Part shown: piece by piece, positions 10,061 to 42,078 of the stretch
Layout of the letters: each line of letters begins with the position of its first letter
How positions within the stretch are numbered: the stretch's first letter is position 1
From: Desulfocarbo indianensis
GTDB taxonomy: Bacteria > Desulfobacterota > Desulfarculia > Desulfarculales > Desulfarculaceae
NCBI GenBank assembly: GCA_001184205.1
Contig: LBMP01000011.1
Coordinates: 1 to 47,886, forward strand
Direction: 5' to 3'
DNA: 47,886 nucleotides
Made by a program: the position numbers and the translations under genes
Notes under the pieces: model-generated
What the model saw: the letters and a program-made list of their open reading frames with translations, nothing else
Told to the model about the DNA's origin: nothing
Databases searched by the model: none

Positions 10061-10348
10061 TTAATTTAAAAGGTTTTTAACCTGGGCGCTGGGTTTGAAG
10101 ACCATGCGCTTTTTGGCTTTGATCTTGATCGGCTCGCCGGTGGAGGGATTCACGCCTTTGCGGGCCTTGCTCTTCTTGAGCGCGAAAGTGCCCAGCCCCG
10201 CCACGCGGAAAGCCCGGCCAACCTTGACCTCTTTGCGGGCCATGTCAACAAAGGACTCGATGGCGGTTTTGGCGGCCGCCTTGGAAATCCCGGCGTCCTT
10301 GGCAACTTTGTCGATCATGTCCGCCTTGGTCATAGGTTTTTTAGCCAT
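10061..10348 (-). CDS. HU/IHF-family nucleoid DNA-binding protein
   Basis: This 95-residue protein has the HU/IHF fold. The family signature is GTFALKKSKARKGVNPSTG around residues 52-70, with the beta-arm proline P68 that intercalates into bent DNA. The extra N-terminal residues (MAKKPMTKADMI) are lysine-rich, as is common in Desulfobacterota HU homologues. HU bends DNA and compacts the nucleoid. The ATG at 10348 has AAGGAG 5 bases upstream. It is a single gene between the che operon and the divergent dcw promoter. A more specific IHF assignment is not possible by eye. Confidence 0.93.
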   Translation of the reverse strand: MAKKPMTKADMIDKVAKDAGISKAAAKTAIESFVDMARKEVKVGRAFRVAGLGTFALKKSKARKGVNPSTGEPIKIKAKKRMVFKPSAQVKNLLN

Positions 10349-10856
10349 GCCGTCTCCTTATTCCTGCTTGGTTTCCCCCGGGCTGGTCCCTCTGCCGTTC
10401 AGAGGGGGGTAACCAGGCCGACGGGCAGTTTGCAATCTGGAAGCCTGGTAATATCGCGATCCAGCCCTGGCTCAAGGACGCCGCACCTGAAATGGCCCGA
10501 TAAACACGGAGCATTCGTGGGGCGCCCACGACGCAAGCCAGAATATCACTGCTTCGCGCCGGGAGTCAACCCGAAATTATCAAGCATTTAAGGCTAGTGC
10601 GAATGTGGAGCCCCGGCGGTTCCCCTGGGTCAGCCCAGACGGCTCCCCACTTTGCGCCACCAAAAAATCCGACAAGCGCCTCCCTCTAAAAAGCCTATTT
10701 AGCGGCCCGTGGCGATGCCCTGTTAATATTTATAAATAAAACAATGAGTTATAATTTTATTGCCTTGAAAGTGGCATATATATCCCTATCGCCCAAAAAC
10801 GGTGGCACGCGGCTTTGCCCTGGCGGAGGCGAGGGGGAAAAGATCGTGTTTTCTTC
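10349..10856. other. Long intergenic region between HU and the dcw promoter
   Basis: No convincing gene is present. The left part should contain the HU promoter; a possible minus-strand match (TTGAGC, 16-base spacer, TATTAC near 10450-10480) is weak. A small hairpin CTGGG-TCAG-CCCAG lies at 10625-10638. An AT-rich island at about 10722-10765 contains a perfect TATAAT (10750-10755), but the hexamer 17 bases upstream is a poor -35. The island lies about 100 bases upstream of the mraZ promoter. Confidence 0.5.
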
Positions 10857-10886
10857 TTGACATACCCCCAGGGAGCCCCCTATAGT
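10857..10886 (+). promoter_or_regulatory. Sigma-70-type promoter of the dcw cluster (PmraZ)
   Basis: A consensus -35 TTGACA (10857-10862) is followed after 18 bases by TATAGT (10881-10886). This is the strongest promoter match in the window and sits about 55 bases before the mraZ start. Four AGTGG repeats begin within the -10 and run into the transcribed leader. Confidence 0.85.
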
Positions 10887-10918
10887 GGGGCCCAGTGGAA
10901 GTTAGTGGGGAATAGTGG
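10884..10918 (+). promoter_or_regulatory. MraZ box array: four AGTGG repeats at exact 10-bp spacing
   Basis: AGTGG begins at 10884, 10894, 10904 and 10914, one per 10 bases. In studied bacteria MraZ binds a run of TGGGN/GTGGR repeats separated by about 5 bases upstream of mraZ and represses its own operon. The array overlaps the -10 element and the start of transcription, which fits autorepression. Confidence 0.85.
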
Positions 10919-10946
10919 GTAATTGTCCCTTGAGGCGAGGCGACAG

Positions 10947-11387
10947 GTGTTCACCGGTTGGTCAGTACATAGCCTGGACAGCAAGGGCCGCTTGGCGGTG
11001 CCGGCCAGGTTCCGCGACGTGCTCAAAGCGCTGCGCGACGACCGTCTGGTGATAACCACCTCGGACCGCTGCCTGGTGGCCTACCCCCAGGAAGACTGGC
11101 GGGCCCTGGCGGATAAGATCAGCCGCCTGAGCCAGCTGGACCCCAGGGTGCAGGCCTTTCGCCGCTATTTCATAAGCGGCGCCACCGATTGCACCTGCGA
11201 CAAGCAGGGACGGGTGTTGATCCCCCAAGCCCTGCGGGAAATGGCCGGTTTGGAAAGTCAGGTTCTCTTGGTGGGCATGCAGAGCAATTTCGAGATTTGG
11301 GACAAGGACCGCTGGTACTCGGCGCGCGAGGAAATCCGCGCCAACTTCGGGGACCTCTCTTCGTTCATGGCCGAACTGGGAATCTAG
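10947..11387 (+). CDS. mraZ: Transcriptional regulator MraZ
   Basis: MraZ is a ring-forming AbrB-fold DNA-binding protein that controls the dcw cluster. The 146-residue protein has two SpoVT/AbrB-like repeats, each with the DxKGR signature: SLDSKGRLAVPARFR near residues 9-23 and TCDKQGRVLIPQALR near 81-95. I prefer the GTG at 10947, which gives the family-typical MFTG start and has GAGG 6 bases upstream; an in-frame TTG at 10923 would add 8 residues. It is the first gene of the dcw operon, followed by rsmH after 3 bases. The four AGTGG repeats in its own promoter point to autoregulation. Confidence 0.95.
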   Translation: MFTGWSVHSLDSKGRLAVPARFRDVLKALRDDRLVITTSDRCLVAYPQEDWRALADKISRLSQLDPRVQAFRRYFISGATDCTCDKQGRVLIPQALREMAGLESQVLLVGMQSNFEIWDKDRWYSAREEIRANFGDLSSFMAELGI

Positions 11388-11390
11388 GCC

Positions 11391-12341
11391 ATGGGCGAGA
11401 AACACCGGCCGGTGATGCTGGCCGAGGTGATCGAGGCCCTGGAACCCCAACGCGGCGGATTGTTTGTGGACGGCACCGTGGGAGCTGGAGGGCATGCCGC
11501 GGGCGTCTTGGAAACCGCCGCTCCCGGCGCCCGTCTCTGGGGGCTTGACCGAGACCCTTCGGCCCTGCGATTGGCCAGCGAGAGGTTAGCGGTCTTTGGG
11601 AACCGGGTGAAGCTTTGGCAGACCACCTTCGACCGCTTGGGCGATTGCCTGGCCCAAGAGGGCGAAGACGGCGCCGATGGCATCCTCCTGGATTTGGGGG
11701 TTAGTTCCATGCAGCTCGACGACCCGGGCCGTGGCTTTGCTTTTCGCTTCGAGGCGCCCTTGGACATGCGCATGGGCGGCCAAGGCCCCGGCGCGGCCCA
11801 ACTGGTAAACGAGTTGGACGAAAACCAGCTGGCCCGCCTTTTCAGGGAATTGGGCGAGGAGCCCCAGGCCCGGCGGGTGGCCCGCGCCGTCATCAGCGAG
11901 CGGGAAGGGAATCCCATCACCACCACCGGCCGGCTGGCCGCGGTGGTGGAGGAGGCCCTCACCGCCGCCGAGAGGCGCAAGCGCAAGCTGCATCCGGCCA
12001 CCCAGGTCTTCATGGCCCTGCGCCTGAAGGTTAACGACGAATTGGGCCAGTTGGAGCGCTTTTTGGAAAGCGCGCCCGGCTGGCTGAAGCCCGGAGGCAG
12101 GTTGGCCATCATCAGTTATCACTCCTTGGAAGACCGCCGGGTCAAGCGCGCCATGCGGGCCTGGGCCCAGCCCTGCACCTGCCCGCCGGAGCTGCCGGTT
12201 TGCGCCTGCGGCCGCAAGCCCCTTTTCGATCTGCCCTTCCGCAAGGCCAGGCAAGCCCGCGCCGAGGAAATCGCGGCCAATCCGCGGGCGCGCTCGGCCC
12301 GCCTGAGGGTGGCGGTGCGCACCGGGGAGGCCCTGTCATGA
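11391..12341 (+). CDS. rsmH: 16S rRNA m4C1402 N4-methyltransferase RsmH (MraW)
   Basis: RsmH methylates the N4 of C1402 in 16S rRNA. The 316-residue protein has the SAM-binding start DGTVGAGGH, the GLDRDP acidic strand and the C-terminal SYHSLEDRRVKR motif that is diagnostic for the family. The insertion-domain segments and length (usual 300-320) agree. The ATG at 11391 is 3 bases after the mraZ stop; the stop overlaps ftsL by 4 bases. Confidence 0.97.
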   Translation: MGEKHRPVMLAEVIEALEPQRGGLFVDGTVGAGGHAAGVLETAAPGARLWGLDRDPSALRLASERLAVFGNRVKLWQTTFDRLGDCLAQEGEDGADGILLDLGVSSMQLDDPGRGFAFRFEAPLDMRMGGQGPGAAQLVNELDENQLARLFRELGEEPQARRVARAVISEREGNPITTTGRLAAVVEEALTAAERRKRKLHPATQVFMALRLKVNDELGQLERFLESAPGWLKPGGRLAIISYHSLEDRRVKRAMRAWAQPCTCPPELPVCACGRKPLFDLPFRKARQARAEEIAANPRARSARLRVAVRTGEALS

Positions 12342-29681: not shown

Positions 29682-29939
29682 CTAATCCTGGGACCCACGG
29701 CCGCCCGCCGGCCGGGTGAAGATTATCTTGAATCGGGCGGCGATCTCCGGCTGCTGGAAGCACGAGGAGCATTCCCCGGAAGCGGCGCAGGCGGCCGGAT
29801 CCACGGCTTCCAAACGCACCTCGAAGCCCAGGTCGCGGTATTCCTCCACCGCCTCGCTCAGGCGCGGTTCATCGGTCATGAATTGCTTGACCCAGCCCTG
29901 GGTCACAAGCCGGTTTTCTTTTTCCGCGGAACAGGTCAT
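29682..29939 (-). CDS. Small cysteine-containing protein at the end of the activase operon
   Basis: I do not recognise this 85-residue protein. It has a central helix-strand pattern (SEAVEEYRDLGFEVRLEAVD) and a cluster of four cysteines (CAASGECSSCF plus C3). The spacing CxxxxxCxxC could bind a metal or [Fe-S] cluster, but no known motif is matched. The ATG at 29939 has AAGGG 5-6 bases upstream. It lies about 98 bases downstream of the BzdV-like oxidoreductase on the same strand and is likely the last gene of that operon. A role in electron transfer or regulation is possible. Confidence 0.75.
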   Translation of the reverse strand: MTCSAEKENRLVTQGWVKQFMTDEPRLSEAVEEYRDLGFEVRLEAVDPAACAASGECSSCFQQPEIAARFKIIFTRPAGGRGSQD

Positions 29940-30037
29940 GGCATCCCTTGCGGCCGGTCACCCCGGCGGCGTTGGCCGGACTTTCTAAATGATAGCTACC
30001 CGCCGCCGCTCCGGCAAGCCGTCGCACCAGCCGGGTG

Positions 30038-32548
30038 TTAGAAAAGGTCGTCCAGGTCGTCGCCGCCCTGGGAGCCGTCGCCGGGGGGCAGGCAGCCGTG
30101 GGCCTGCGCATAGGCTTGCATGCGCTCGGCTTCGGCCTTGGAATACAGGGGGTCTTCCTCCCAGGTGAAATAAGCGGCCTGCGAGCCGCCCTCCAGGCGT
30201 TCGGCCAGGGCCGCGCGCAGATCGGCCGCCCCCTGGATGGCCAGGATGTTGTGGTCATGGTCAAATAAGATAAGCACGCCTTCCACCTGGGGGGCCAGGG
30301 CCAGGTTTTCCTGGGTCAGGGCCAGCCAAGAGCGGGGGGGCTTGGGCGGCGCACTGAGCTGCAATCTGAGCTGGCATTGCAGGCAACGGCCGGCCTCGGC
30401 CCTGGCCTGCCCGGCGCTGAAGCCCAGGCACACCTCGTCATAGCCGGCCCGGCTTTCCTGGGGAGCGCGCCTGGCGGGCGGCGCCAGCTCCAGGGCGGCG
30501 AACCCCTCCACGCGGCCCAAGCGGGGGCCGGGTGCCTCGTGCTCGGTCAGGGACAGGTCGAGGTCGCCGTCGCCGCCCAGGTATTTATCAATGGAAGCGG
30601 CGGCCCGGCGGCCGGCGGCCACCGCCTGCACCACCGAGCCGGGCAGGGCCGTTGCGTCTCCGCCGGCGAACACCCCGTCCTCGCCGGTGGCCAGGGTCTT
30701 TGGGTCCACGGCGATAAGACCGTTATCCACCGCGACCCCGCTGCCCTGGGCCAGGGAAAGGTCCGCGGTCTGGCCCACGGCCAGGATCACCCAGTCGGCG
30801 GCCAGCTCCAGGGTCTCGCCATCATCAAAGGCCGGGTTGAAAAGCCCGCGATCGTCCAATACCCTCAGGCAGCGGCGGAAGCTGATTTTTCCATCGGCGG
30901 CCACCGCCACGGGGCCCCAGCAGTCGCGCACCTTGACGCCCTCGGCTTCCGCCTGGCGCAGCTCGTCGACCTGGGCCGGCATTTCCCCGCGCTTTTCCAG
31001 ACAGACCAGGTCCACGCTTTGCGCGCCCTGGCGCAGGGCGCACAGGGCCGCGTCCAGGGCCGCGTTACCGCCGCCCACCACCACCGCCCGGCCGTTCAAT
31101 TGCGGCGCCTCGCCGCGCCGGATGGCTTTCAGGAAGTCCAGGCCCCACAAGACATTATTTCGCCCGGCCCCTTGCAGGGGGATGCGGCGGGCGAGCTGCG
31201 CGCCCACCGCCAGGAACACCGCGTCATGGCCCTGGGTTTTCAATTCCGCGACGCTGCGCACCTTGCTGCCGGTCTGGAGCTCCACCCCCAGGTCCAGGAT
31301 GTCCCGTATCTCCGCCTCCAGCGCCGCCTCGGGCAAACGGTAGGCCGGGATGGCGTAGCGCAGCATGCCGCCGGGCCGGTCCTCGGCTTCGAAGATGGTC
31401 ACCCTGTGGCCTTTACTGGCCAGGAAAAAGGCGGCCGTGAGCCCGGCCGGGCCGGAGCCCACCACCGCCACCCTGCGTCCGGTGGCCACGGCCCGGGGCA
31501 GCTTGTCGCGCCAGGCCGCGCCGCCGTGGTCGGCGGCGTAGCGCTTGAGCAGGCAGATGGCCACGGGCTGATTGAGCTGGCCCCGGCGGCAGGCCTCCTC
31601 GCAAGGATGCTGGCAGACCCGGCCCAGCACGCCGGGCAGGGGCGCGCGCTCACGCACCGCGGCCAGAGCCTCCTGGGGTTTGCCGTCCGCGATGAGCCGC
31701 AGGTATGCGGGCACGTCGATGCCCGCCGGGCAGGCCTCGCGGCAGGGCGCCAGGCCGGCGGCCCGGCCGCCTGGGCCGGGGGCTTTATCCACCAGGGCCC
31801 CGGTGGGGCACACCTCCACGCAGGCCGCGCAAAAGCGGCAGCCGCTGTCGGCCAGGGTGGGGGCCAGGCTGCCCACCCGCACCTGGCCCTCGGCGTCCCA
31901 TACCCAGCCCAAGGCCCCCACCCCGCGCAAATCCTCGCAGGCGCGCACGCAGCGGGTGCAGCCTATGCACAGGGTGTAGTCGCGGATGATGAGCGGCTCG
32001 GCCTCCAGCACGGGCCGCCGTTCCGCTATCCAGCGCGGGGTGTCGGGGGAGATGCCGATGAAGCCGGCCACCTCTTGCAGCTCGCAATTGCCCAAGCGGG
32101 GGCAGCAGCGCTCCTCCGGGGCCACGTTGGAGGAGCATTGCGAGCGGGAGCAGCCCTCGGCCTGGGCGCAGGTCAGGCAGGCGTGGGGATGGCGGGCCAG
32201 GATGAGGGCCAGCTTGGCCTGCCGCGCCTTTTTAAGGGCCGGGCTGTCGGTGACCACCGACATGCCGGGGGCCACGGCAGTGACGCAGGCGGGCAGGGGA
32301 TCGGCCTCGCCCGCCACCTCCACCACGCAAAGCCCGCAGCCGGTCAGGTCGTCGCGGCGGGCGGTTGCCAGCTTGGTTTGGCCTTGATACACCGCCGCTG
32401 CGGGCTTTTTGCCCTTGCCCGGCGGCAGGTCGGGGTGGTTGCACAAGGTGGGGATGTAGATTCCCGCCGAGCGGGCCGCCTCTAAAATAGTGTCGGCGTC
32501 CCTGGCTGTTATCGGTTGACCGTCCATGGTCAAGCTGACCATCCCCAT
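30038..32548 (-). CDS. BzdV-like multidomain iron-sulfur flavoprotein oxidoreductase
   Basis: An 836-residue fusion. N-terminal [2Fe-2S] ferredoxin domain (C36, C71, C74, C88), NuoG-type His/Cys [4Fe-4S] region (about 120-155), two 4Fe-4S clusters (C194/197/200/204 and C237/240/243/247), a dihydropyrimidine-dehydrogenase-like domain II (C269, C273, C312, C316, C320), then a pyridine-nucleotide-disulfide oxidoreductase core with the FAD loop GSGPAG (364-369) and an NAD(P) loop VVGGGNAALD. The last 90 residues form an extra domain. The layout resembles BzdV-type enzymes that pass NAD(P)H electrons to ferredoxin for benzoyl-CoA reductase. AAGGAG lies 5 bases before the ATG at 32548. It directly follows two activase genes. 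Confidence 0.82.
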   Translation of the reverse strand: MGMVSLTMDGQPITARDADTILEAARSAGIYIPTLCNHPDLPPGKGKKPAAAVYQGQTKLATARRDDLTGCGLCVVEVAGEADPLPACVTAVAPGMSVVTDSPALKKARQAKLALILARHPHACLTCAQAEGCSRSQCSSNVAPEERCCPRLGNCELQEVAGFIGISPDTPRWIAERRPVLEAEPLIIRDYTLCIGCTRCVRACEDLRGVGALGWVWDAEGQVRVGSLAPTLADSGCRFCAACVEVCPTGALVDKAPGPGGRAAGLAPCREACPAGIDVPAYLRLIADGKPQEALAAVRERAPLPGVLGRVCQHPCEEACRRGQLNQPVAICLLKRYAADHGGAAWRDKLPRAVATGRRVAVVGSGPAGLTAAFFLASKGHRVTIFEAEDRPGGMLRYAIPAYRLPEAALEAEIRDILDLGVELQTGSKVRSVAELKTQGHDAVFLAVGAQLARRIPLQGAGRNNVLWGLDFLKAIRRGEAPQLNGRAVVVGGGNAALDAALCALRQGAQSVDLVCLEKRGEMPAQVDELRQAEAEGVKVRDCWGPVAVAADGKISFRRCLRVLDDRGLFNPAFDDGETLELAADWVILAVGQTADLSLAQGSGVAVDNGLIAVDPKTLATGEDGVFAGGDATALPGSVVQAVAAGRRAAASIDKYLGGDGDLDLSLTEHEAPGPRLGRVEGFAALELAPPARRAPQESRAGYDEVCLGFSAGQARAEAGRCLQCQLRLQLSAPPKPPRSWLALTQENLALAPQVEGVLILFDHDHNILAIQGAADLRAALAERLEGGSQAAYFTWEEDPLYSKAEAERMQAYAQAHGCLPPGDGSQGGDDLDDLF

Positions 32549-32605
32549 GACAACTCCTTGATGCTTGGGCGGGCGGGCCCGGCAAGCCCCGCCGGGCCGG
32601 GATCG

Positions 32606-33490
32606 CTAGCTCTTTTTCTTGCGCTCTTTTTCCGCCAGGGCGTTGGCGAAAAGCGCGGCCCCGATGGCGCCGGCCAACTGGGGGTCCTGCCCGGCCTCCA
32701 GGGCCTTGACGCCCATTTCCTTTTCAATGCGCTCCACCATGCCCCGGTTCTTGGCGATGCCGCCGGTGATGGCGAATTCCTTTTCCATGCCCAGGCGCTC
32801 CAGGAGCCCCGCCACCCGCCGGGCCATGGCCGCGCTGTAGGCCGCGATCACCTTTTCCATGGGCCAGCCGCCGCGCAAGAGCCCGGCGGCCTCGCTCTTG
32901 GCGAAGACCACGCAGTGGGAGCTCACCGGCGGCGGCTCTTCAGCCACTTGCAGGGAAAGCTCGCCCAGCTCGGTGATGGGCACTTGCATCAGATCGGCCA
33001 GGACCTCCATGCCGCGTCCCGTGCCGGCGGCGCACTTGTCGTTCATTATGAAATTGACCACCTTGCCCTTGTCGTCGCAGCGGATGGCCTTGCAGTCCTG
33101 GCCGCCCATGTCCAGCACCGTGCGCACCGCGGGGCCGTAGATCCAATTGGCTCCCCGGGCGTGACAGGCGATCTCGGTGATGGACCGTTTGGCAAAGGGC
33201 ACGTTGACCCGGCCGTAGCCGGTGCCCACCGTGTAGTGGAGGTTCTCCACGCTTAAGCCCGTGTCCTTTAGGGCCAGGCTCATGGCCTTCACCGCGCTGT
33301 CCGGGCTGCTGGAGCCGGTGCGGGTGTTGCCGTAGCAAAAGAGCCGGCCGTCCACCAGCACCACCGCCTGCGAACTCACCGAGCCCACGTCCACGCCGCC
33401 GGCCAGGATGCCGCCGGCCTGCCAGTCGATAGCCGGGTCGCTCCAGCGGGATTCGGTCCAGCGCCAGAATTCCTTGGCTGGTTCACTCAT
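32606..33490 (-). CDS. BzdQ/BcrA-like activase subunit (ASKHA ATPase)
   Basis: This 294-residue ATPase belongs to the acyl-CoA dehydratase activase/benzoyl-CoA reductase ATPase family. It has the phosphate-1 loop GVDVGSVSSQ (32-41), the motif DMGGQDCKAI (127-136), and the [4Fe-4S] ligands C153 (DKCAAGTG) and C193 (SSHCVVF). An N-terminal extension with FWRWTESRW is typical of the BzdQ/BcrA type. These subunits use ATP hydrolysis to push an electron to very low potential. It overlaps nothing but sits 6 bases from its partner activase, with which it should form a heterodimer sharing one cluster. The ATG start at 33490 is supported by GGTGAGC upstream. Confidence 0.88.
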   Translation of the reverse strand: MSEPAKEFWRWTESRWSDPAIDWQAGGILAGGVDVGSVSSQAVVLVDGRLFCYGNTRTGSSSPDSAVKAMSLALKDTGLSVENLHYTVGTGYGRVNVPFAKRSITEIACHARGANWIYGPAVRTVLDMGGQDCKAIRCDDKGKVVNFIMNDKCAAGTGRGMEVLADLMQVPITELGELSLQVAEEPPPVSSHCVVFAKSEAAGLLRGGWPMEKVIAAYSAAMARRVAGLLERLGMEKEFAITGGIAKNRGMVERIEKEMGVKALEAGQDPQLAGAIGAALFANALAEKERKKKS

Positions 33491-33496
33491 GATTGC

Positions 33497-34288
33497 TCAC
33501 CTTCCCTCCCTTGGCTGGGGGCTCTCGGCGAAATCGCCCGCCGCGCCCAGGAGGGCGGCGCCAAGGGCCGCCACGAATTCCGGCTCCTGCGGCACGATCA
33601 CCTGGGTCTTCAATCCGAGGTTTAAGGAGTGGACAAAGCCCTGATTGCGGGCCAGGCCGCCGATCAGGGCCGCCGGCTCGGCCAGGCCCAGCCGGCGCAC
33701 CAGGGAGACGATGCGCTCGGCGATGGCGTCGTGCACCGCCTGGGCTATGTCCCCCTTGGGGGTGTTGGCGTGGAGCAGGCCCACCAGCTCGCTTTCGGCG
33801 AACACGGCGCACTGGGCGTTCATGGCCACCTTGTCGGTGGATTTGAGGCTCATCTCGGCGAATTCTTCCAGGCTCACCTCCAGGGCGCGGGCCATGGATT
33901 CGGCGAAGGCCCCGGCCCCGGCGGCGCATTTCTCGTTGAGGGCGGAATCGGCCGCCTTGCCGTCCTCGCTTATCTTGACGGCCCGGCCTTCCTCCGCGCC
34001 CACCTCCACCACGAAACGGGCTTGGGGATGGAGGGCCTTGACCCCCTGGGCCGCCGCCGCCGCCTCGCTCACGAAGCCGTGGGCCATTTTGACGCCGGCC
34101 TGGCCCATGCCGGTGGCGATGACGCGTTCCGGCTTTTGATATTCCGCGCCCAGTTCCTGCCAGGCTTGGGCAAGGGCGGCCGCGGCGTCCCGGCCCGCCG
34201 GCGCGATTACCTTGTCCACCATCCTGCCGTCGAGGACCGCCACGATCTTCACCGTTTTGGCCCCCACGTCGATTCCCGCGCATAGCAT
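33497..34288 (-). CDS. BzdP/BcrD-like activase subunit (ASKHA ATPase)
   Basis: The second activase has 263 residues. It carries the phosphate loop GIDVGAKTVK (5-14), the motif EVGAEEGRAVK (95-105) in place of DxGGQD, which is typical of the BcrD/BzdP type, and the [4Fe-4S] ligands C121 (EKCAAGAGAF) and C160 (NAQCAVF), close to C127/C166 of HgdC. ATG at 34288 has GGGGAGG about 9 bases upstream; the frame remains open 20 codons further but without support. It is the first gene of the operon, 6 bases before the partner activase. The heterodimer would energise an enzyme that is not encoded in the window. Confidence 0.88.
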   Translation of the reverse strand: MLCAGIDVGAKTVKIVAVLDGRMVDKVIAPAGRDAAAALAQAWQELGAEYQKPERVIATGMGQAGVKMAHGFVSEAAAAAQGVKALHPQARFVVEVGAEEGRAVKISEDGKAADSALNEKCAAGAGAFAESMARALEVSLEEFAEMSLKSTDKVAMNAQCAVFAESELVGLLHANTPKGDIAQAVHDAIAERIVSLVRRLGLAEPAALIGGLARNQGFVHSLNLGLKTQVIVPQEPEFVAALGAALLGAAGDFAESPQPREGR

Positions 34289-34574
34289 GAATGCAATCCT
34301 CCCCTGCTGCAAATGGGCCCGGCTTTGGGTGCTGTAGAGGCTTTCCACGCGCCGCGCCTGGGCGGGCGGCGCATGAACAGCCGCCCCTAAGAATGCCAGA
34401 ACTATGTTTTATAGTCGAATTTTAATGAGCAAGCTCGACAGGGGAGGGGGAACGGCCCGGCGGCGCGGCGATGGCTGGCGCGCGGCCGGGCCATGGTAAA
34501 AGCAGGACCGTGGCGGCCGTTAGGCGTCCGAGGAGAGGGTCGTTGGGCGGGCAAAACCTTATAGGGAGGCGCTC
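34289..34574. promoter_or_regulatory. Probable promoter region of the activase operon
   Basis: No gene is visible in these 286 bases. A less GC-rich patch around 34400-34435 contains a minus-strand TATAAA (plus-strand TTTATA near 34408-34413), which could be a -10 element, but a good -35 at 16-18 bases is lacking. A sigma-54-like TGGCA motif nearby does not keep the needed GC partner. Confidence 0.3.
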
Positions 34575-34781
34575 TTAGTCAACGCGGATTACTTTGACGT
34601 TCTTGCCCACCCACTCCATGGGCAGGTATACGCGGCCGGAGTTTCCGCTTTGCTTTACCTCCTTTTCGATCATTTCCTCGCCGTAAACCTCGAATTTGGC
34701 CTGGCGGAAGAACTCCCCGGAGTTCATGGCGGCGTTTAACCTGTTTGAGGTCAGGCTGGCTTCTTTCAGAACGGGGCGCAT
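34575..34781 (-). CDS. DUF2080-type (transposon-encoded-like) small protein, copy 1
   Basis: This 68-residue protein ends in a conserved AbrB/SpoVT-like stretch, FEVYGEEMIEKEVKQSGNSG followed by RVYLPMEWVGKNVKVIRVD. It resembles the DUF2080 family, called putative transposon-encoded proteins and best known in Archaea. The family has a swapped-hairpin-like fold and may bind DNA; function is unknown. It is nearly identical over 40 residues to a second copy at 35735-35938, which differs in the N-terminal part. ATG at 34781 has AAGGTG about 9 bases upstream. It lies in an AT-rich, likely acquired region. Confidence 0.75.
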   Translation of the reverse strand: MRPVLKEASLTSNRLNAAMNSGEFFRQAKFEVYGEEMIEKEVKQSGNSGRVYLPMEWVGKNVKVIRVD

Positions 34782-35273: not shown

Positions 35274-35708
35274 TTAATCGTCCCTCAAGGTGAGCTGAAG
35301 GTTGATGTAGGGGCTGCGGTCGAAGCCCATGTTCTTGAAGAAAGCCAGCATATCGCCGGAATCCCACATGACCGAGGTGAGCACGTCCCGCACGCCTTGC
35401 GCCCTGAAATGCCTGAGCAATTCCTCGGCCAGCGCGCGCCCGATGCCGGCGCCCATGTTTTCCGGGGCCACCCCCACCATCTCCAGCCAGCCGGAAATCT
35501 CGGCGCCGAAACCGCCCACCTTGACCTCGCCGAAGATGAAGCCCATCACCTTGCCCTCGTTTTCGGCCACGATGCCCGGCAGATGCTTGTTGCCGACGTG
35601 TTGGGCCAGCATCTCGCGCCAGTTATCGCTGACGGGGGCGCGGGTGATCCTCTCCTGAATTTTGATCACCGCGGCTAGATCCTCATTGGTCATGGGGCGT
35701 AGTTTCAC
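35274..35708 (-). CDS. GNAT-family N-acetyltransferase
   Basis: This 144-residue protein is a GNAT acetyltransferase. The acetyl-CoA-binding motif A appears as VAPENMGAGIGRALAEELL (about 77-95), with the pyrophosphate-binding loop corresponding to GAGIGR, and the C-terminal strand-helix FFKNMGF. Substrate cannot be told from sequence. The start is a GTG at 35708, which gives the usual GNAT opening MKLRPMT and has GAGG about 9 bases upstream. It lies between the two DUF2080 copies on the same strand and is followed by a terminator, so it may share the copy-2 promoter. Confidence 0.87.
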   Translation of the reverse strand: MKLRPMTNEDLAAVIKIQERITRAPVSDNWREMLAQHVGNKHLPGIVAENEGKVMGFIFGEVKVGGFGAEISGWLEMVGVAPENMGAGIGRALAEELLRHFRAQGVRDVLTSVMWDSGDMLAFFKNMGFDRSPYINLQLTLRDD

Positions 35709-35734: not shown

Positions 35735-35938
35735 TTAATCAATGCGGATTATTTTAACGTTCTTACCCACCCACTCGGGGGGCAGGTAGACCCGGCCGGA
35801 GTTTCCGCTTTGCTTCACCTCCTTTTCGATCATCTCCTCGCCATAAACCTCGAATTTGGCCTTGCGGCGCATTTCCTGGGCAGAGGAGGCGTCTTCCTTT
35901 TCAGGAGGCGGATTGTCTGTCTTCTGGGTCATATCCAT
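35735..35938 (-). CDS. DUF2080-type (transposon-encoded-like) small protein, copy 2
   Basis: This 67-residue paralogue of the 34575-34781 protein shares the C-terminal 40 residues almost exactly (FEVYGEEMIEKEVKQSGNSG, then RVYLPPEWVGKNVKIIRID), with P replacing M in the second block. The N-terminal 26 residues are unrelated and Glu/Lys/Ser-rich. The DNA is also highly similar in the shared region, indicating recent duplication. The ATG at 35938 has AAGG about 10 bases upstream; another ATG lies 2 codons later. It is 26 bases upstream of the acetyltransferase gene. Confidence 0.78.
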   Translation of the reverse strand: MDMTQKTDNPPPEKEDASSAQEMRRKAKFEVYGEEMIEKEVKQSGNSGRVYLPPEWVGKNVKIIRID

Positions 35939-36101: not shown

Positions 36102-36866
36102 TTACCCGGTCCAATAGCGGTCGGGATCAAAACGTCTAATAATGTCCAATTCTTGGCTTGAAGGCTTCGGGGTGGTTGCCACTTGGGGGGCGGCGGTCAG
36201 CTCCCAGCCGGTTTCCGCGCACACTTGCTCCAGAGTGGCTTGGGGGTGAAGCTGGGTGAGGCAGGCCCGGCCTTGGGGGAAGCGGAACACCCCCAGGGAG
36301 GTGATGAGGGCTTCCGGCCCGCCTCGGGGAAGCCCCTGCCCGGCCCGCCAGGCCGGGCCGGCCTGGGGGCCCTCGCCCCAGCCGGGGGAAGTGATGAAAT
36401 CCACCCTGGGCACCAGGCGGCGGCGTTCGTGGGTCATCACGATGAGGGTGCGCTGGGCCAGGCTGGCCAGATCGGCGCCGCCCCCCGAGCCGGGCAGGCG
36501 CACCATGCCCTTGGCGGTGTTGACCTGATGGGTGTTCACGTTGCCGTGGATATCCACCTGGGCCCCGCCGATGAATCCCACCCCCACCCGGCCGCCCGAG
36601 AGCAGGGTCATCACCTCGTTCAGTTCGCAAAGGCGCATGGCGCTGGTCTGATTGGGCGGGTCGCCCATGGTGATGATGGGGCCGGTGGCCGGCGTGTCCC
36701 TTATCACCCCGTTTTCAAACAGGCCCACCGCGTTGGGCGCGTGGGTGGATTTGGCCAGGAGAAAAGCCAAAAGGGGCAGACGCATGCCCACGAAGACCAC
36801 GTCGTGGTCCTTTATCTCGCGGGCCGCCGCGCTGACCATGATGTCGCCTGGTGAATAGCGGGTCAT
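36102..36866 (-). CDS. Glutaconate-type CoA-transferase beta subunit (GctB-like)
   Basis: This 254-residue protein is the beta subunit of a two-subunit acyl-CoA transferase of the glutaconate/3-oxoacid type. Conserved blocks are SPGDIMVSAAAREI, VFVGMRLPLLAFLLAK, the GxGGAQVDIHGNVN segment and the PGSGGGADLA loop. The catalytic glutamate of this enzyme class lies in the GctB-type subunit, but the aligned residue (near the FENGVI segment) cannot be fixed by eye. The ATG at 36866 is chosen because conserved sequence begins just after it; the frame is open 35 codons further upstream. Its partner alpha subunit is 4.3 kb away at 41152. Confidence 0.85.
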   Translation of the reverse strand: MTRYSPGDIMVSAAAREIKDHDVVFVGMRLPLLAFLLAKSTHAPNAVGLFENGVIRDTPATGPIITMGDPPNQTSAMRLCELNEVMTLLSGGRVGVGFIGGAQVDIHGNVNTHQVNTAKGMVRLPGSGGGADLASLAQRTLIVMTHERRRLVPRVDFITSPGWGEGPQAGPAWRAGQGLPRGGPEALITSLGVFRFPQGRACLTQLHPQATLEQVCAETGWELTAAPQVATTPKPSSQELDIIRRFDPDRYWTG

Positions 36867-36949
36867 GGGATTCAATAAAGCATAAACCAGCCGGGATTTG
36901 CCAGCGTTTAAAATTGAAGCATGGCTGGGTTTAGTCGATAGGGTCGGCT

Positions 36950-36986
36950 GGCGCGCCGGCCGCCCGCTCATGACGGCCGGCGCGCC
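36950..36986. repeat. Perfect 13-bp inverted repeat with 11-base loop
   Basis: GGCGCGCCGGCCG (36950-36962) and CGGCCGGCGCGCC (36974-36986) are perfect complements separated by 11 bases. It lies 10 bases past the stop of the Cache-domain gene and before the CoA-transferase beta gene. No T-run follows on the minus strand, so it is a strong structure rather than a textbook terminator; it may stop or slow transcription or protect an mRNA end. Confidence 0.75.
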
Positions 36987-36996
36987 AAGCGGCTGG

Positions 36997-37518
36997 CTAA
37001 TCCAGATAAACGCCGGTTCCGATGAAATAATCCGTTCCCGGAATGGGCTCCACGTAGCCCATCTTGGCGTGCTCGCCCTTGTCGCCGGGCTTGATCCACC
37101 AGTACTCCACGAATCCGCCGCCTTGCTTGGACTTTTCGGCCAGGAGGCGTATCACGTAGTTGCCCTTGCTGTCTTTGTAATCCTTGAGGTCTTTGCCCAC
37201 CAGGTCTTTTTGGGTGGCGTGGGCTATGTTCACGCATTTCAGGTCATAGGCGTAAAAATAGCCGGAGTTGTCGGGATAAAAACGGATGGGGTCGATGTAG
37301 CGCTGGATCAGCTTGATGCGCTCCTGGGCGTTGGGCAGGTCCTTGACCAAAGCGGCCAAACCCACGGCGGCGGCGTGCACCACGGTTTTCGCCTCTTTTT
37401 TGGCGCAGTCCAGTTTGCCGCCGGCCATGGCCGGGCTGGCCAGGATAAGCCCCAGCATGATCGCTGCCACTATCAACACGAGTTTTCCGCTGTCACTGAA
37501 TCTAGCTTTGCACATCAT
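36997..37518 (-). CDS. Periplasmic single-Cache (sCache_2-like) domain protein
   Basis: This 173-residue protein has a clear signal peptide (core VLIVAAIMLGLILAS about 14-28, A-M-A site about 31). The mature part looks like one Cache sensor domain of the sCache_2 type: N-terminal helix, then FYPDNSGYFYAYDLKCVNIAH, the DLVGKDLKDYKDSKGNYVI block and the C-terminal YVEPIPGTDYFIGTGVYLD. Cache domains are usually the ligand-binding part of receptors or kinases; this one has no transmembrane or effector part. The ATG at 37518 has AAGGAG 7 bases upstream and is directly followed by a second ATG. It could be a periplasmic sensor or binding protein for an external receptor. Confidence 0.85.
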   Translation of the reverse strand: MMCKARFSDSGKLVLIVAAIMLGLILASPAMAGGKLDCAKKEAKTVVHAAAVGLAALVKDLPNAQERIKLIQRYIDPIRFYPDNSGYFYAYDLKCVNIAHATQKDLVGKDLKDYKDSKGNYVIRLLAEKSKQGGGFVEYWWIKPGDKGEHAKMGYVEPIPGTDYFIGTGVYLD

Positions 37519-38401
37519 GAACAAACTCCTTGGTTGCTGTGAGAATCTTGTGGCTACTCCCGTTAGACTAATCCGTTCCGCCGCGATGCGCCAGGGGATA
37601 AAAAGCCCTGGCGCCGGCCGGCGCGCTCCCATGACCGGCCATGCCGGGCCGGGCGACTAACTCCACGCCACGCCATGTTAATTGGCTTGAAACCGGCCAG
37701 TCAACCAGGGATGCGCTCGGGCCCTGCCGCGGGGGAGGCGCGGGAGCCGCCGCCGACGGCGGCAGGGCGGGCGGATATATGCGCCAGGAGCGGCCCGGGG
37801 GCCGTTGATAACCGGCGGCGCTCAAGGCAAAAACTTTCCCGAGGCGGTCATTTTAGCCGCGTGGGGCCGGCCTTCGTTGTCGAATCCCCGTGGAAGGCTT
37901 TCGCCCTAACCGGCTCAATTGATTGGCTAAGCCTTAATTTAATAAAATTAGTGGGGGTTTGGAGCCTTTTTTGCATGATTGGAGGTGGGTTTACAGAAGA
38001 CGGCTACTCATCCAGTGAAAGCCATGGCGGGTAGGTCCGGGTTTGGGATGGAATCCGGTGTTTACCCCTTAAACCTCCCGGCCCCGCCTTTAAAGCCATG
38101 CGCGGCGTTATACCGTTGGCCGGAGCCCGCCATGATCCTAGAGCCCCATCCTTTGCTCCCCAGGCAGGAAATAGACTTGCCGCCCGCCGACGCCCCAGTC
38201 ATGCCGCCTCTCCGGCCCGTTCGGCCGCCTTCAGGTATTCACCGCAAACAGCGCGAACTATTGGCAATACGCGCCGGCGGCCGGCTTTGGGCAGGCCGCC
38301 GGCGAGCCCCGGCAACCCCCAGCGGATAAAGGAGAACGCCTATGGAATAGCCTGTGGTCTGCGATCAAGGAAGATAGCAGTAACTTCATGGAGGATAGCA
38401 A
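37519..38401. other. Long intergenic region rich in inverted repeats
   Basis: About 880 bases without a supportable gene. It holds a 9-bp inverted repeat GCGCCAGGG/CCCTGGCGC with an A-rich loop (37588-37614), a 14-bp GC palindrome (37611-37624), an AT-rich patch (about 37915-37955) and an 11-bp inverted repeat CGCCGGCGGCC (38272-38304). Some open frames exist but their composition and lack of ribosome sites argue against coding. Confidence 0.5.
38272..38304. repeat. Perfect 11-bp inverted repeat with 11-base loop
   Basis: CGCCGGCGGCC (38272-38282) and GGCCGCCGGCG (38294-38304) are exact complements around an 11-base loop. It lies about 100 bases upstream of the EF-hand gene, within its leader or upstream region. 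Its role is unknown. Confidence 0.6.
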
Positions 38402-39280
38402 ATGGACATCACTGGAATTGGCTATGGCTCCGCATATGCGTATCAGGGAGGTTGGAGCCAACGCTCCACCAACGATATCAGCCAGCTGATAGCCTCCCAG
38501 ATCGCGGAGGCGGACGCCGACGGCGACGGCGCGCTGAGCCTGGAAGAGAGCCAAGCGCCCGCCGAGTTGTTCAACCAGGCCGATACGGACGGGGACGGTT
38601 TTCTCTCCGAGTCCGAATTATTGGCCATGATGCAAAAGGTCAGAAGCGAGGGGCCGCCTCAGGGCCTGGATGAAGGCGGGCAGCCGCCGCAGATGCCCTC
38701 TGCGGAAGAAATGGCGGCGCGCATCATCGAAGAGCATGACGCCGATGGCGACGGCGCGCTGAGCGCGGAGGAGAGCGAAAGCCCCGCCGAGATGTTCAGC
38801 GCGGCCGACGCGGACGGCGATGGCCTGGTCACCGAGGATGAGCTGGTGGCCATGATGGAAAACATGAAGCCCGAGGGTCCGCCGCAAGGCGAAGGCATGC
38901 AGCAGGCCCCGGAGGCCGCCTCCGTGGCGACCATGGCGGCCAGCCTCATGGAAGACAATGACGAGGACGGCGACGGCTCGCTGAGCGTCAGCGAGGCCTC
39001 CACCTCGGAAGAGGTCTTCGACGCCATGGACACCAATGAGGACGGGGTGGTCAGCCAGGCCGAGCTGGAAGCGGCCCTGGGGAACATCCTGAACGTCATG
39101 CAGGGAAGCGGGCTCGGCTTCGGGGCCCAGGCGGTCAACGCCGCCGGCGGCATGGCCGCCTATCAGGAGGAAATGGAACGGCTAATCCTGAGCGCCTTGA
39201 CCGGCGGTGACACGGAAGACGTCACCGAGCAAAGCGTCACGGGATCGCAGCAGTATGAAGAGGTGGATCTGACCGTCTGA
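38402..39280 (+). CDS. EF-hand Ca2+-binding protein with six calcium loops in three tandem units
   Basis: This 292-residue acidic protein has six EF-hand loops, each 12 residues: 38-49, 61-72, 113-124, 136-147, 187-198 and 210-221. Each reads D-x-D-x-D-G with a final E, except that the fifth has DEDGDG and the sixth DTNEDG. The loops come in pairs 23 residues apart and the pairs repeat every 74-75 residues, an internal triplication. There is no signal peptide or membrane segment; the first 25 residues are Gly/Tyr/Ser-rich. Calcium buffering or signalling is likely. The ATG has GGAGG 7 bases upstream. A strong terminator follows, so it is monocistronic. Confidence 0.92.
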   Translation: MDITGIGYGSAYAYQGGWSQRSTNDISQLIASQIAEADADGDGALSLEESQAPAELFNQADTDGDGFLSESELLAMMQKVRSEGPPQGLDEGGQPPQMPSAEEMAARIIEEHDADGDGALSAEESESPAEMFSAADADGDGLVTEDELVAMMENMKPEGPPQGEGMQQAPEAASVATMAASLMEDNDEDGDGSLSVSEASTSEEVFDAMDTNEDGVVSQAELEAALGNILNVMQGSGLGFGAQAVNAAGGMAAYQEEMERLILSALTGGDTEDVTEQSVTGSQQYEEVDLTV

Positions 39281-39300
39281 TTATGTTGCGACGGGTTCCT

Positions 39301-39340
39301 CGGGAGCGCGCCGGTACGACTTCCCGGCGCGCTCCCGTTT
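39301..39340 (+). terminator. Rho-independent terminator after the EF-hand gene
   Basis: A perfect 14-bp stem CGGGAGCGCGCCGG (39301-39314) with CCGGCGCGCTCCCG (39324-39337) is followed by TTTCCGTTC. It starts 20 bases past the EF-hand stop and also lies before the convergent acetyltransferase, whose transcription ends nearby. Confidence 0.85.
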
Positions 39341-39412
39341 CCGTTCAAATTTGGCGGCGCCGGTTGGCGGCCAAATTAGGGCGGGGGGAGCGAGATATCC
39401 CGGCCGCCGCCA

Positions 39413-39886
39413 TTATAGGGCGGGCGGCTTTGACCGTACTTTTCTCAAGAAAACCTGGCTGAGGGAGGGCGAAACCTCTTGCGTCTGGAAAGGCAGGTAG
39501 CCTTGCCGGCGGTAGAAGCTTAAGTTGCGCTGGCTGCGTGAGCCGGTGAAAAGCTCGTAACATTGGGCTTGGGGGAACTCGGCCTCGATGGCGGCCATCA
39601 GGGCCCGGCCCAGGCCTTGGCCCTGGGCTTTAGGGTGGACCATGAGCCTGCCTATTTGGCAGACGCCGCCCTCGTGCCGGGCCCGCACCGAACCCAGGAT
39701 GGGGCCGCTAACCACCGCCTTGAGAATGACGCCCTGCTCGAATTCCGCTGCCAGCTCGGCCAGGGTCTGGGTCAGGGGCGGGATGTTGTAATCGCCATAG
39801 ATTTCAGCCTCGCTCAAGAACGCCAGTTTTTGCAGGGCCAGTATCTCTGGCGCGTCGCTGGGCTTGGCGCGGGATATTTTTATCAT
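39413..39886 (-). CDS. GNAT-family N-acetyltransferase
   Basis: This 157-residue protein has the GNAT motif A around LMVHPKAQGQGLGRALM (about 81-97), with the Q-G-x-G-R acetyl-CoA loop, and the C-terminal NLSFYRRQGY segment. Opening residues MIKISRAKPSDAPEILALQK are typical. The substrate is unknown. The ATG at 39886 has AGGG 4 bases upstream. It overlaps nothing and lies 42 bases downstream of the zinc-ribbon gene's stop on the same strand, so it may share that transcript. Confidence 0.88.
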   Translation of the reverse strand: MIKISRAKPSDAPEILALQKLAFLSEAEIYGDYNIPPLTQTLAELAAEFEQGVILKAVVSGPILGSVRARHEGGVCQIGRLMVHPKAQGQGLGRALMAAIEAEFPQAQCYELFTGSRSQRNLSFYRRQGYLPFQTQEVSPSLSQVFLRKVRSKPPAL

Positions 39887-39928
39887 GGAGCCCTGTTGAA
39901 ACCGCCGGCCTTGGCAGGCCGCATGGGT

Positions 39929-40123
39929 TCAGTCGTTTTCCTGTTTGATCACCGAATAGGTTTCCTTCAGCCTGCGCATGAAACCGGCCGAGTCGTTTTT
40001 ATAGTGCGGCTTGAGCGAGTCGGGATGGATCATCTCCAGGCAGCAGCCCTCGCACAGAGGCGCGCCTTTATATTCTCTTGCCTCGCCGGGCTCCAGAGGC
40101 CGGCCGCATTGCGAGCAAGGCAT
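39929..40123 (-). CDS. Small zinc-ribbon-like protein (64 residues)
   Basis: This 64-residue protein starts MPCSQCGRPL and continues with GAPLCEGCCLEM, giving two Cys pairs (C3/C6 and C24/C27) that could form a LIM- or ribbon-like zinc site. The rest is a basic helix (FMRRLKETYSVIKQ). Function is unknown. ATG at 40123 has AGGAAAGG upstream. It lies about 42 bases downstream of the radical SAM gene and could be its partner. Confidence 0.78.
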   Translation of the reverse strand: MPCSQCGRPLEPGEAREYKGAPLCEGCCLEMIHPDSLKPHYKNDSAGFMRRLKETYSVIKQEND

Positions 40124-40165
40124 AACGCCGCCTTTCCTGGCGCGGGCGAGCGCCGCGTCATGCCG

Positions 40166-41065
40166 TCAGTCCTCCAGCCCGTATACCTGCCTGGGCGTCA
40201 AATGCCCGGGATAAGAATCCAAGAGGGTTTTGCGGGCCAGAAAACAGAGATGGCACTCGTCCACGTAGGCGTCTTCATGGGGCAGGTCGTATTGGCGCAC
40301 CAACTCGGCCGGGCCTCCCCGCGATAGCGGCCCGCAGACTGGATGCTCCTGGGGACGATAGTCCCGGACCATTTCGGCCAAGGGCCGCTCCCACAGGTTG
40401 CCCATGCTTATGCCCTGGCAGATGTGCACGTTGCCAAAGCAATCCAGGTGCACCCTCCCGGGATCGGCCAACTCCTCGTGGGGGCATTCCACCAGTTCGC
40501 GCCAGTCCTTCAGGGGCAGTCCCTGGGTGAGCTTTTCCGCCGCCCGGCCCCTGAACATGGCTCCCCCGCCTATGACCGGCGCGCCTTTTTCCACTCCTTC
40601 GCCCGGAGCCGACAGGGCGGGCGGGCTTATGCAGATGGCCCCCGAGCCGACGCCCAGCTTTTGCGCCGCGGCCAGGGCCCGCCTGGCCGGGTTGTCTTCG
40701 CCCTCGGCGTGGAAGGAATCGTCGCTCATGCTCAGGTAGTCCACCCCCGCCTCCATGAGGGGCCGCAGCCAGAGCTGGGCGTCCTCCGGGCAGGTCGCCA
40801 GGTAAGCGTTGGTCACCAGGCCCACCCGGAAGCCCATCTCATGGGCGGCCTTTACGGAGTGGACCAGCAAGGGGAAGAAGAGCAGCGGCTCGCCGCCTTC
40901 GAAGCACACGCCCTTGACCGTGCCGGTCTCTCGGGCCTGGGCCAGAACCCGCCCCACCTGGGCCAGGGTGAAGGTGCCCTGGGAGCGCGGGCTGCAATAA
41001 AGAAAGCAGTGATCGCACTCGTAATTGCAGGTGTAGGTGAGGAGGAAATGTATTTCTTGCAGCAT
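40166..41065 (-). CDS. Radical SAM protein of unknown specificity
   Basis: This 299-residue protein has the radical SAM [4Fe-4S] motif C13-x3-C17-x2-C20 (CNYECDHC) and the SAM-binding GGEP motif (FEGGEPLL). A C-terminal cysteine region (HLDCFGNVHICQG and DECHLC) may hold an auxiliary cluster, as in SPASM-like enzymes. The substrate cannot be predicted; peptide-modifying and heme/cofactor maturases share this pattern. GAGAGG lies 6 bases before the ATG at 41065. It follows the CoA-transferase alpha gene on the same strand after 86 bases, and is followed by the small zinc-ribbon protein. Confidence 0.85.
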   Translation of the reverse strand: MLQEIHFLLTYTCNYECDHCFLYCSPRSQGTFTLAQVGRVLAQARETGTVKGVCFEGGEPLLFFPLLVHSVKAAHEMGFRVGLVTNAYLATCPEDAQLWLRPLMEAGVDYLSMSDDSFHAEGEDNPARRALAAAQKLGVGSGAICISPPALSAPGEGVEKGAPVIGGGAMFRGRAAEKLTQGLPLKDWRELVECPHEELADPGRVHLDCFGNVHICQGISMGNLWERPLAEMVRDYRPQEHPVCGPLSRGGPAELVRQYDLPHEDAYVDECHLCFLARKTLLDSYPGHLTPRQVYGLED

Positions 41066-41151
41066 GTCCGCCTCTCGTCTGAATACGGAGCGCGCGGCAG
41101 GCGGCCGGCCCTAAAAGAGCTTACGGTTCAGGATAAAGCTTTTTTGCCATC

Positions 41152-42078
41152 CTACCAGCCGTACTCCACGCTGCCGCCCCTGGCGGGATGCTTGACCATC
41201 AGATCGTTCAGGCGGCTCCGCCCCAGCTTGGCCAGATACTCCTCCCGGTTTTTGACCCCATGCACCCATTCACCGAACCATTTTTCCGCCTGGTGCGGGT
41301 CGCGGGTGCTTTGGGAATAATCCACGTACATGGCGTTGTCCAGGCCGTAATAGCCCTGCACCGGCGCGGGATGGGCTCCCCAGGGAACCTCGCAGACCGC
41401 GTCCACCAGAAAGCCCGGCACCAGGGTGCGGTCGGGGTCGGCGCGGATCACCTCCCCCGGCACGATCTCCTCGCAGGTGATGAGCACGCGCTCGGCCGCG
41501 TAGGCCGCCTGGCGGCTGATGCCCACCGCGCCCCAGCACATGGCGTTGCCCTGGGCGTCGGCCCTCTGGGTGTGGATTATGGCCAGGTCCGGTTTGAGCG
41601 CCTTGACCGCCAGGAGCTTGCGGCCGGAAAAAGGGCACTCCATGTGCATGAAATGAGGATTGTCGCGCACGATGTCGCTGCCCAGGGGCGATTGGCTCAC
41701 CGCCAGGGGCAGTCCCCGGGCCCCGGCTTCCAGGGCCAGGCCCACGCTGAAGTTGGAGTGGTTGATCACCTCCAGGGGACGGGGGAAGCCCTTCTCCACC
41801 GCCCGGCGATAGCAATGGCCCAGGCCGGTGGAGACGTTGCCCACCCAGGCGGCGATGACGCGCTCCACCAGGCCCGCGCCCGCCAACTGGTCAAAGGGGA
41901 TGTTGCTGATGGGGCCGATGAGGGTGAGCCGGCCGATATTCTGGCGCATGATCTCGTGCACCGCCGCGAAAGGCACGAAGCCTTCCAGGCCCAAGCCCAG
42001 GGCGATGCTGGCGCCGGGCCGGGCCAGGCGTTTGATGGCGCTTGCCAGATCTTGGATTTTTCCGGTGTCTTCGCTCAT
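41152..42078 (-). CDS. Glutaconate-type CoA-transferase alpha subunit (GctA-like)
   Basis: This 308-residue protein matches the alpha subunit of two-subunit CoA-transferases (glutaconate/acyl-CoA type I). Recognisable blocks are ASIALGLGLEGFVPFAAVHE near the start, GPISNIPFDQLAGAG, and the C-terminal VPWGAHPAPVQGYYGLDNAM with a conserved Y-x2-Y. The substrate is not predictable. Its beta partner is at 36102-36866, not adjacent. The ATG at 42078 has GGAGGGG about 8 bases upstream. A promoter with an overlapping palindrome lies just upstream. Confidence 0.86.
   Translation of the reverse strand: MSEDTGKIQDLASAIKRLARPGASIALGLGLEGFVPFAAVHEIMRQNIGRLTLIGPISNIPFDQLAGAGLVERVIAAWVGNVSTGLGHCYRRAVEKGFPRPLEVINHSNFSVGLALEAGARGLPLAVSQSPLGSDIVRDNPHFMHMECPFSGRKLLAVKALKPDLAIIHTQRADAQGNAMCWGAVGISRQAAYAAERVLITCEEIVPGEVIRADPDRTLVPGFLVDAVCEVPWGAHPAPVQGYYGLDNAMYVDYSQSTRDPHQAEKWFGEWVHGVKNREEYLAKLGRSRLNDLMVKHPARGGSVEYGW

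Follow-up and report, generated by a model that had tools for sequence, protein, structure and literature searches.

A Bzd-type electron-activation module without catalytic subunits in Desulfocarbo indianensis, and its recurrence beside class II benzoyl-CoA reductase genes

The window analysed here, a 47,886-nt stretch of Desulfocarbo indianensis (assembly GCA_001184205.1, contig LBMP01000011.1, designated C13), carries at 29682–34288 a Bzd-type electron-activation module, that is, the activase pair P and Q (PQ) of class I benzoyl-CoA reductases together with an associated oxidoreductase. The module stands without the catalytic genes bzdN and bzdO, and comparative sequence evidence favours reading it as a bzd operon from which they have been lost. 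The genome also encodes a class II (Bam) benzoyl-CoA reductase, and in other genomes the orphan pair lies repeatedly and directly beside bam genes; it may be, at about even chances, that a class I ATP-driven electron activator has repeatedly been retained for a role in serving or priming class II.

An orphan activation module and its origin

The module consists of four tandem minus-strand genes separated by intergenic gaps of 6, 57 and 98 bp: actP (33497–34288; 263 aa), actQ (32606–33490; 294 aa), a gene for a BzdV-like oxidoreductase (30038–32548; 836 aa) and a gene for a conserved 85-aa protein (29682–29939). Both activases matched the BcrAD_BadFG family (PF01869; 120.4 bits for actP and 185.3 bits for actQ, Pfam cut-off 31.5). 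The product of actQ also exceeded the cut-off of the BzdQ model TIGR03192 (404.1 versus 380.2 bits), whereas actP fell below it (109.9 bits) and passed the general activase model TIGR00241 (183.6 versus 125.4 bits); thus, of the BzdP/BzdQ-like label given in the first-pass annotation, the Q part holds by model score, and actP is assigned as a BzdP-like ASKHA activase from PF01869, TIGR00241, its motifs and synteny. The translated sequences confirmed the paired cysteines and motifs described in that annotation, C121/C160 with GAEEG in actP and C153/C193 with GGQD in actQ, so that each subunit has the ASKHA domain and the single cysteine pair of the BadF/BadG/BcrA/BcrD family; C121 and C160 of actP are predicted ligands of a bridging [4Fe-4S] cluster. 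The closest solved chains to actQ were MbdQ (9gai_D) and the HAD activators 4eht and 1hux, and 4eht was also the top solved relative of actP. The BzdV-like protein carries 2Fe-2S, NuoG-type 4Fe-4S, Fer4_20 and Pyr_redox_2 domains according to Pfam, bearing out its earlier description as a 2Fe-2S/4Fe-4S/FAD-NAD oxidoreductase; it combines NuoG-like N-terminal clusters with an NfnB/GltD-like FAD/NAD(P) part, and its relatives in the Protein Data Bank (PDB) include NfnA and NfnI, its assignment resting also on synteny. Among plasmid records, none covered 80% of this protein as query.

Comparison with complete operons revealed how the locus differs from the BZD type of class I (BzdNOPQ with BzdM and BzdV, as in the Azoarcus/Aromatoleum bzd operon). 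The window shares with two relatives, G010 and G012, a phosphodiester-glycosidase gene, the small gene, V, Q, P, a GNAT gene and a CoA-transferase gene, and ftsZ beyond this block is shared with G010, whose locus lies on one contig; P and V are 61% and 65% identical, respectively, to their counterparts in the syntenic G010 operon. In G010 and G012, P is immediately preceded by bzdN-bzdO, and Q and V have a ferredoxin gene between them. All three genes are missing from the window: the position corresponding to bzdN/bzdO and a second GNAT gene is occupied by about 0.29 kb without a recognised gene (34289–34574, minus strand), and the bzdM position is a 57-bp gap (32549–32605, minus strand), in place of which all five compared operons (G010, G012, G020, G031 and L047) have a gene for a ferredoxin of about 95 aa. 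In G031 the same genes are flanked by Oah, Dch and Had, making a plain benzoyl-CoA operon, in which bzdO reads with one stop. The homologues of P, Q, V, the small gene and GNAT, the order P-Q-(ferredoxin)-V and the BzdQ model score thus match the class I BZD type, and since the genes missing here are present in the syntenic relatives, the most plausible origin of the orphan state is the secondary loss of bzdN, bzdO, the ferredoxin gene and, apparently, the second GNAT gene. In a search of 60 genomes, a set that includes the window's own, eight had BzdQ-type matches at E ≤ 1e-70, two of them at only 46–47% identity.

The proteins that remain are not decayed, because strongly conserved positions are kept: of the columns at least 97% conserved among orthologues from bzdNO-bearing genomes, the window retains 41 of 42 in P, 98 of 98 in Q and 83 of 83 in V, and neither a stop nor a frameshift interrupts the 4.2 kb of module coding sequence.

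A catalytic partner was sought in the whole genome, which is 98.65% complete with 1.46% contamination in 333 contigs. The HGD-D family search returned five proteins, on contigs C1, C222 and C290 and none on C13, and none of the five reached the BzdN, BzdO, BcrB or BcrC cut-offs. One passed the model for the double-cubane protein; a neighbouring pair on C1 gave its best scores with HadB and HadC, below the cut-offs of these models. With a BzdO query the best match in the genome was only 30% identical; the possibility that the HadBC-like pair on C1 is a hidden BzdNO was rejected on this identity and on the model scores. No adjacent HgdAB or HadBC pair was found on C13, and a look just beyond the window for catalytic genes that would share the module's transcription unit found none. 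The absence of a catalytic subunit from the window, noted in the first-pass annotation, therefore extends to BzdN, BzdO, BcrB and BcrC in the genome-wide search, and the different or distant partner proposed there agrees with our best reading. HadB-like relatives of the C1 pair occur in other genomes of the family; a HadBC-like pair at 9173–11649 of locus L006 has no activase gene in its stretch and lies near genes that we read as dsr-membrane-complex-like. The class II system is encoded elsewhere in the genome, with bamBCDEFGHI on contig C111 (bamI is cut by the end of the examined stretch) and Oah, Had and Dch at C290.

Orphan activases beside class II genes

Linkage between PQ and bam was evaluated in 395 genomes of the window's phylum, 55 of which had a BzdQ-type match at E ≤ 1e-100. 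From 50 of these genomes 51 loci were taken (G343, G243 and the second matches of G412 and G184 are left out), nine of them identical to loci already mapped in the public-genome scan described below, so that the two samples partly overlap; bam and bzdNO status refers to the locus stretches, many of which end at contig ends. In 18 of the 51 loci, representing 7 families and 14 genera, bam genes lay within 9.5 kb of PQ, and none of these loci had intact bzdNO; weak bam matches in L204 and L227 are left out of this count, which was made again under a fixed rule (50% identity, 30% length). Conversely, bzdN and/or bzdO were present at length in six loci (counting L194, with bzdO truncated at a contig end, and L229, with bzdO in two pieces), none of which had bam genes. 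The 42 new loci alone comprised 15 linked to bam and 4 with bzdNO. By our own rough estimate of 0.9% per locus, less than one bam-linked locus of 51 would be expected by chance.

PQ and bam often lie in a single gene cluster. In six loci (L221, L225, L226, L228, L231 and L233, with L226 from a one-contig genome) bamBCD is preceded on its own strand by P, Q, a ferredoxin gene, the small gene and a GNAT gene, with fdhD between module and bam in the first four and a second GNAT gene in three of these. PQ and bam are divergent in L219 and L224, 7 kb apart in L188, and separated in L223 by 3.8 kb without a gene of the reference set. Other loci hold remnants of the catalytic genes: L213 has a bzdN fragment and the last ~86 residues of bzdO, in different frames, between bamI and P; L206 has a bzdO fragment between a bamI remnant and P; and L203 and L236, with no bam in view, have C-terminal scraps of bzdO before P. 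We read these scraps as the orphaning of PQ caught part-way.

Two further arrangements were seen. Genome G266 has two PQ loci (L201 and L211): in one, bzdN-bzdO follow Q (47% and 40%), and in the other they precede P (55% and 44%). In L081, L082, L196, L197 and L200, PQ without bzdNO lies near a thiolase gene and a DUF35 gene, with an SDR gene too in L082, surroundings reminiscent of BbsAB/BbsCD-type steps.

Searching public genomes with a BzdQ alignment turned up 573 loci, of which the best 80 were mapped. Most of these 80 had bzdN and bzdO together with PQ. Under a fixed rule (50% identity, 30% length), bam genes were found in 4 of the 21 loci without bzdNO and in none of the 59 others; the four are L051, L065, L068 (a Chloroflexi record) and L080, in which the pair lies in or beside bam genes. 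Scored by genome, BamB was found in 18 of 24 BzdQ-bearing genomes without BzdO versus 4 of 59 with BzdO (Fisher P=9e-10 over 83 genomes, with kinship ignored). Absence was called here with the bzdO query, and in the window genome with the HGD-D family as well, among metagenome-assembled genomes (MAGs) that often come without a completeness figure. The class without BzdO takes in G063 and G066, where the sole BzdO-like proteins (33% identical) are part of a second system next to bam, and the class with BzdO includes the partial matches of L072, L090 and L123; L103 was dropped because it lies on the same contig as L023, and L108 and L096 stand outside the two-by-two table.

The second system of G063 and G066 is itself a meeting of class I-like and class II genes, one in which catalytic subunits are kept. 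At 9288–13443 of L140 (G066), and in L141 (G063), a second HGD-D set (O-like at 30–31%, N-like at 33%, P-like at 33–35% and Q-like at 41–43% identity) and an SDR gene precede bamB in the same orientation. In three Firmicutes loci (L100, L104 and L108) P is divergent (36–37%) and Q is 62–63% identical; L100 and L108 have weak BzdN-like HGD-D genes on both sides of the pair, possibly another aryl-CoA or dehydratase system.

The loss indicated by synteny, the class II set in the genome and the recurrence beside bam in other lineages were not foreseen in the first-pass annotation. Both reductase classes have been reported together before: Desulfotomaculum gibsoniae has six bamB copies and bzdNOPQ genes that do not form one unit (PMC4148979), NaphS2 has bam and the class I-like Ncr (PMC2988823), Desulfatiglandales MAGs have BzdQ and BamB at similar frequency, taken as use of both classes, with BzdQ called the active subunit (PMC10570749), and a nitrate-reducing benzene consortium transcribed bam, and bzdQ homologues less (PMC5852087). 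In the accessible parts of the D. gibsoniae, Desulfatiglandales and benzene-consortium reports both classes are noted or the matter is left open, and PQ beside bam without bzdNO is not described. A literature search for an activase tied to class II, with most subscription journals outside its reach, returned co-mentions only and no PQ kept beside bam without bzdNO.

Flanks of the module

The region upstream of actP, previously said to hold no gene, contains a 68-aa DUF2080-family gene (34575–34781, minus strand; NF033496, 72.6 bits) and a GNAT acetyltransferase gene (35274–35708, minus strand; Pfam), relatives of which also occur in bzdNO-bearing and bam-linked PQ loci. A second DUF2080 copy lies at 35735–35938, and the two copies are carried by a 133-nt direct repeat, 89% identical (34575–34707 and 35735–35867), beside the place where bzdN and bzdO are missing; DNA similar to this repeat precedes both GNAT genes of G010. 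A terminator-like hairpin at 35192–35169, between the DUF2080 and GNAT genes, is a weak prediction, with 12 such sites versus 6.6 in shuffled sequence. A candidate bzdO scrap upstream of actP was rejected, as 266 of 300 shuffles scored as high. Farther out, at 36102–42078, two CoA-transferase subunits that are overlapping neighbours in G010 stand about 4.2 kb apart, with Cache-domain and radical SAM genes (Pfam) and, by our reading, EF-hand-like and GNAT genes between them.

At the other end of the module, the 85-aa protein has a C57-x2-C60 motif, and an alignment of its family (22 rows) shows six invariant columns; its relatives were found both in bzdNO-bearing and in bam-linked loci. Its predicted structure is a small mixed alpha-beta fold (pLDDT 81.5), and it had no Pfam family over the cut-off and no PDB fold match at E ≤ 0.001.

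A candidate role in class II catalysis

ASKHA activases of the BzdP/BzdQ type serve HGD-D enzymes, and HgdC, HadI and the DCCP activase are single-gene activases of such enzymes. The window pair belongs to the same activase family and differs in having two unlike subunits and no adjoining HGD-D gene. The class I pair PQ uses ATP hydrolysis to drive electrons into BzdNO, to which, in the BZD type, it is predicted to bind only transiently; the activators of 2-hydroxyacyl-CoA dehydratases make an ATP-driven transfer of one electron, which is then recycled (PMC11971306). Class II enzymes are described as bifurcating (PMC11971306, PMC12096430) and push electrons to about −650 mV (PMC12096430); the high-potential acceptor of this proposed mechanism is called unknown in a 2025 paper (PMC11971306), and NAD+ and menaquinone are proposed in a review (PMC12096430).

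If the pair serves class II, as we consider about as probable as not, P and Q would form a heterodimer holding one [4Fe-4S] cluster through two cysteines from each subunit. Its reductant would be a ferredoxin or the BzdV-like enzyme; as the ferredoxin gene is missing at the window locus, the electrons there would have to come from the BzdV-like protein or a different ferredoxin. Reduced PQ would then hydrolyse ATP, change shape and pass a very-low-potential electron to an acceptor other than BzdNO, most likely the Bam complex (BamC or BamBC). Occasional priming or re-activation, in the manner of the HAD activators, is favoured over the use of one ATP per electron at each turnover, because strict anaerobes could hardly afford the latter, and a change of partner may have been eased by the predicted transient binding between PQ and BzdNO of the BZD type (PMC11971306).

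Several observations weigh against this role. In the window genome PQ (C13) and bam (C111) are on different contigs and the ferredoxin gene is missing, so that the linkage evidence is borrowed from other genomes; it is from these that we infer the partner. When kinship was taken into account on the Q tree, on which the bzdO state requires 15 changes, only 6 pairs fell on starred branches and BamB differed in about 3 of them (median P=0.25), too few for a decision; the direction was as expected in all but one of 200 such pairings. The window Q has changed faster than its G010 and G012 counterparts (P between 1e-5 and 0.002 for three outgroups; no such effect with L067), and P has done so with two of four outgroups only, for which reason a generally faster P was dropped; this could reflect relaxed constraint. 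V was mostly not faster (P=0.005 and 0.03 when G020 was the outgroup, 0.05 to 0.4 with the others). Together with the intactness of the proteins, the pattern fits a functional module freed from part of its old constraints, or early relaxation. We saw no freed interface common to the window Q and other Q proteins without bzdNO: R112 is altered in 6 of the 17 other such rows from BamB-bearing genomes, and the window keeps it. Furthermore, PQ can persist without either system, as in G020 (99% complete, 7% contamination), which has P-Q-ferredoxin-V and in which neither bzdO nor BamB was found; G069, G077, G115, G119 and G120, for which completeness is not given, also lacked BzdO and BamB matches. 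Nor does Bam need PQ: a BzdQ of at least 68% identity is missing from 14 of the 18 BamB-bearing genomes among the 60 relatives, and for Desulfococcus multivorans a bam cluster without any bcrABCD homologues has been reported (PMC5109826). For the benzene degrader ORM2a, the account consulted gives a bam cluster and names no activase in it (PMC13101534), and the accounts of class II consulted describe it as ATP-independent, with no activase among its eight named subunits (PMC11971306, PMC12096430).

These points bear on the other explanations unequally. The module could be a vestige, class II having made class I dispensable and bzdN, bzdO and the ferredoxin gene having been deleted so recently that P, Q and V are intact for lack of time. 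The class II genes in the genome, the absence of genes at two distinct points in the operon, the faster change of Q (and of P with two outgroups) and the many BamB-bearing relatives without a close BzdQ are all in its favour; the uninterrupted coding sequence and the nearly complete retention of conserved positions speak against it, and because 24 of the 83 scored genomes, the window's among them, share this state and it is found next to bam in 7 families, recent accidents are a poor account, which leaves a vestige unlikely. Less probable still is another HGD-D radical enzyme as partner, namely the HadBC-like pair at C1:918–920 kb, which has no adjoining activase gene in its 19.9-kb stretch and belongs to the family that PQ-type activases serve. 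HadB-like proteins (30–33% identical to BzdO) also occur in G004 and G014 without a close BzdQ, and in G008 and G017 with only the 46–47% matches; moreover, a stand-alone activase is present at C1:1080 kb, and the linkage to bam would be left unexplained. That BzdNO is present in the organism and was lost from the assembly through misassembly or a gap, as the 333 contigs and the 133-nt repeat beside the missing genes might suggest, is very improbable: the contig is unbroken across the place, a collapsed repeat should have retained the GNAT gene standing after it in G010 and should not have cut at 34.3–34.6 kb, a second position lacks the ferredoxin gene, and the genome is nearly complete and shares its state with others.

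Taken together, the surprising part is the recurrent pairing of orphan PQ with class II. BzdQ has been used as a marker of class I in MAGs (PMC10570749), and our finding no BzdO in 24 of 83 BzdQ-bearing genomes warns that such use needs caution. A conserved ATP-driven electron activator beside bam would be a concrete and testable addition to how class II enzymes reach their very low potential.

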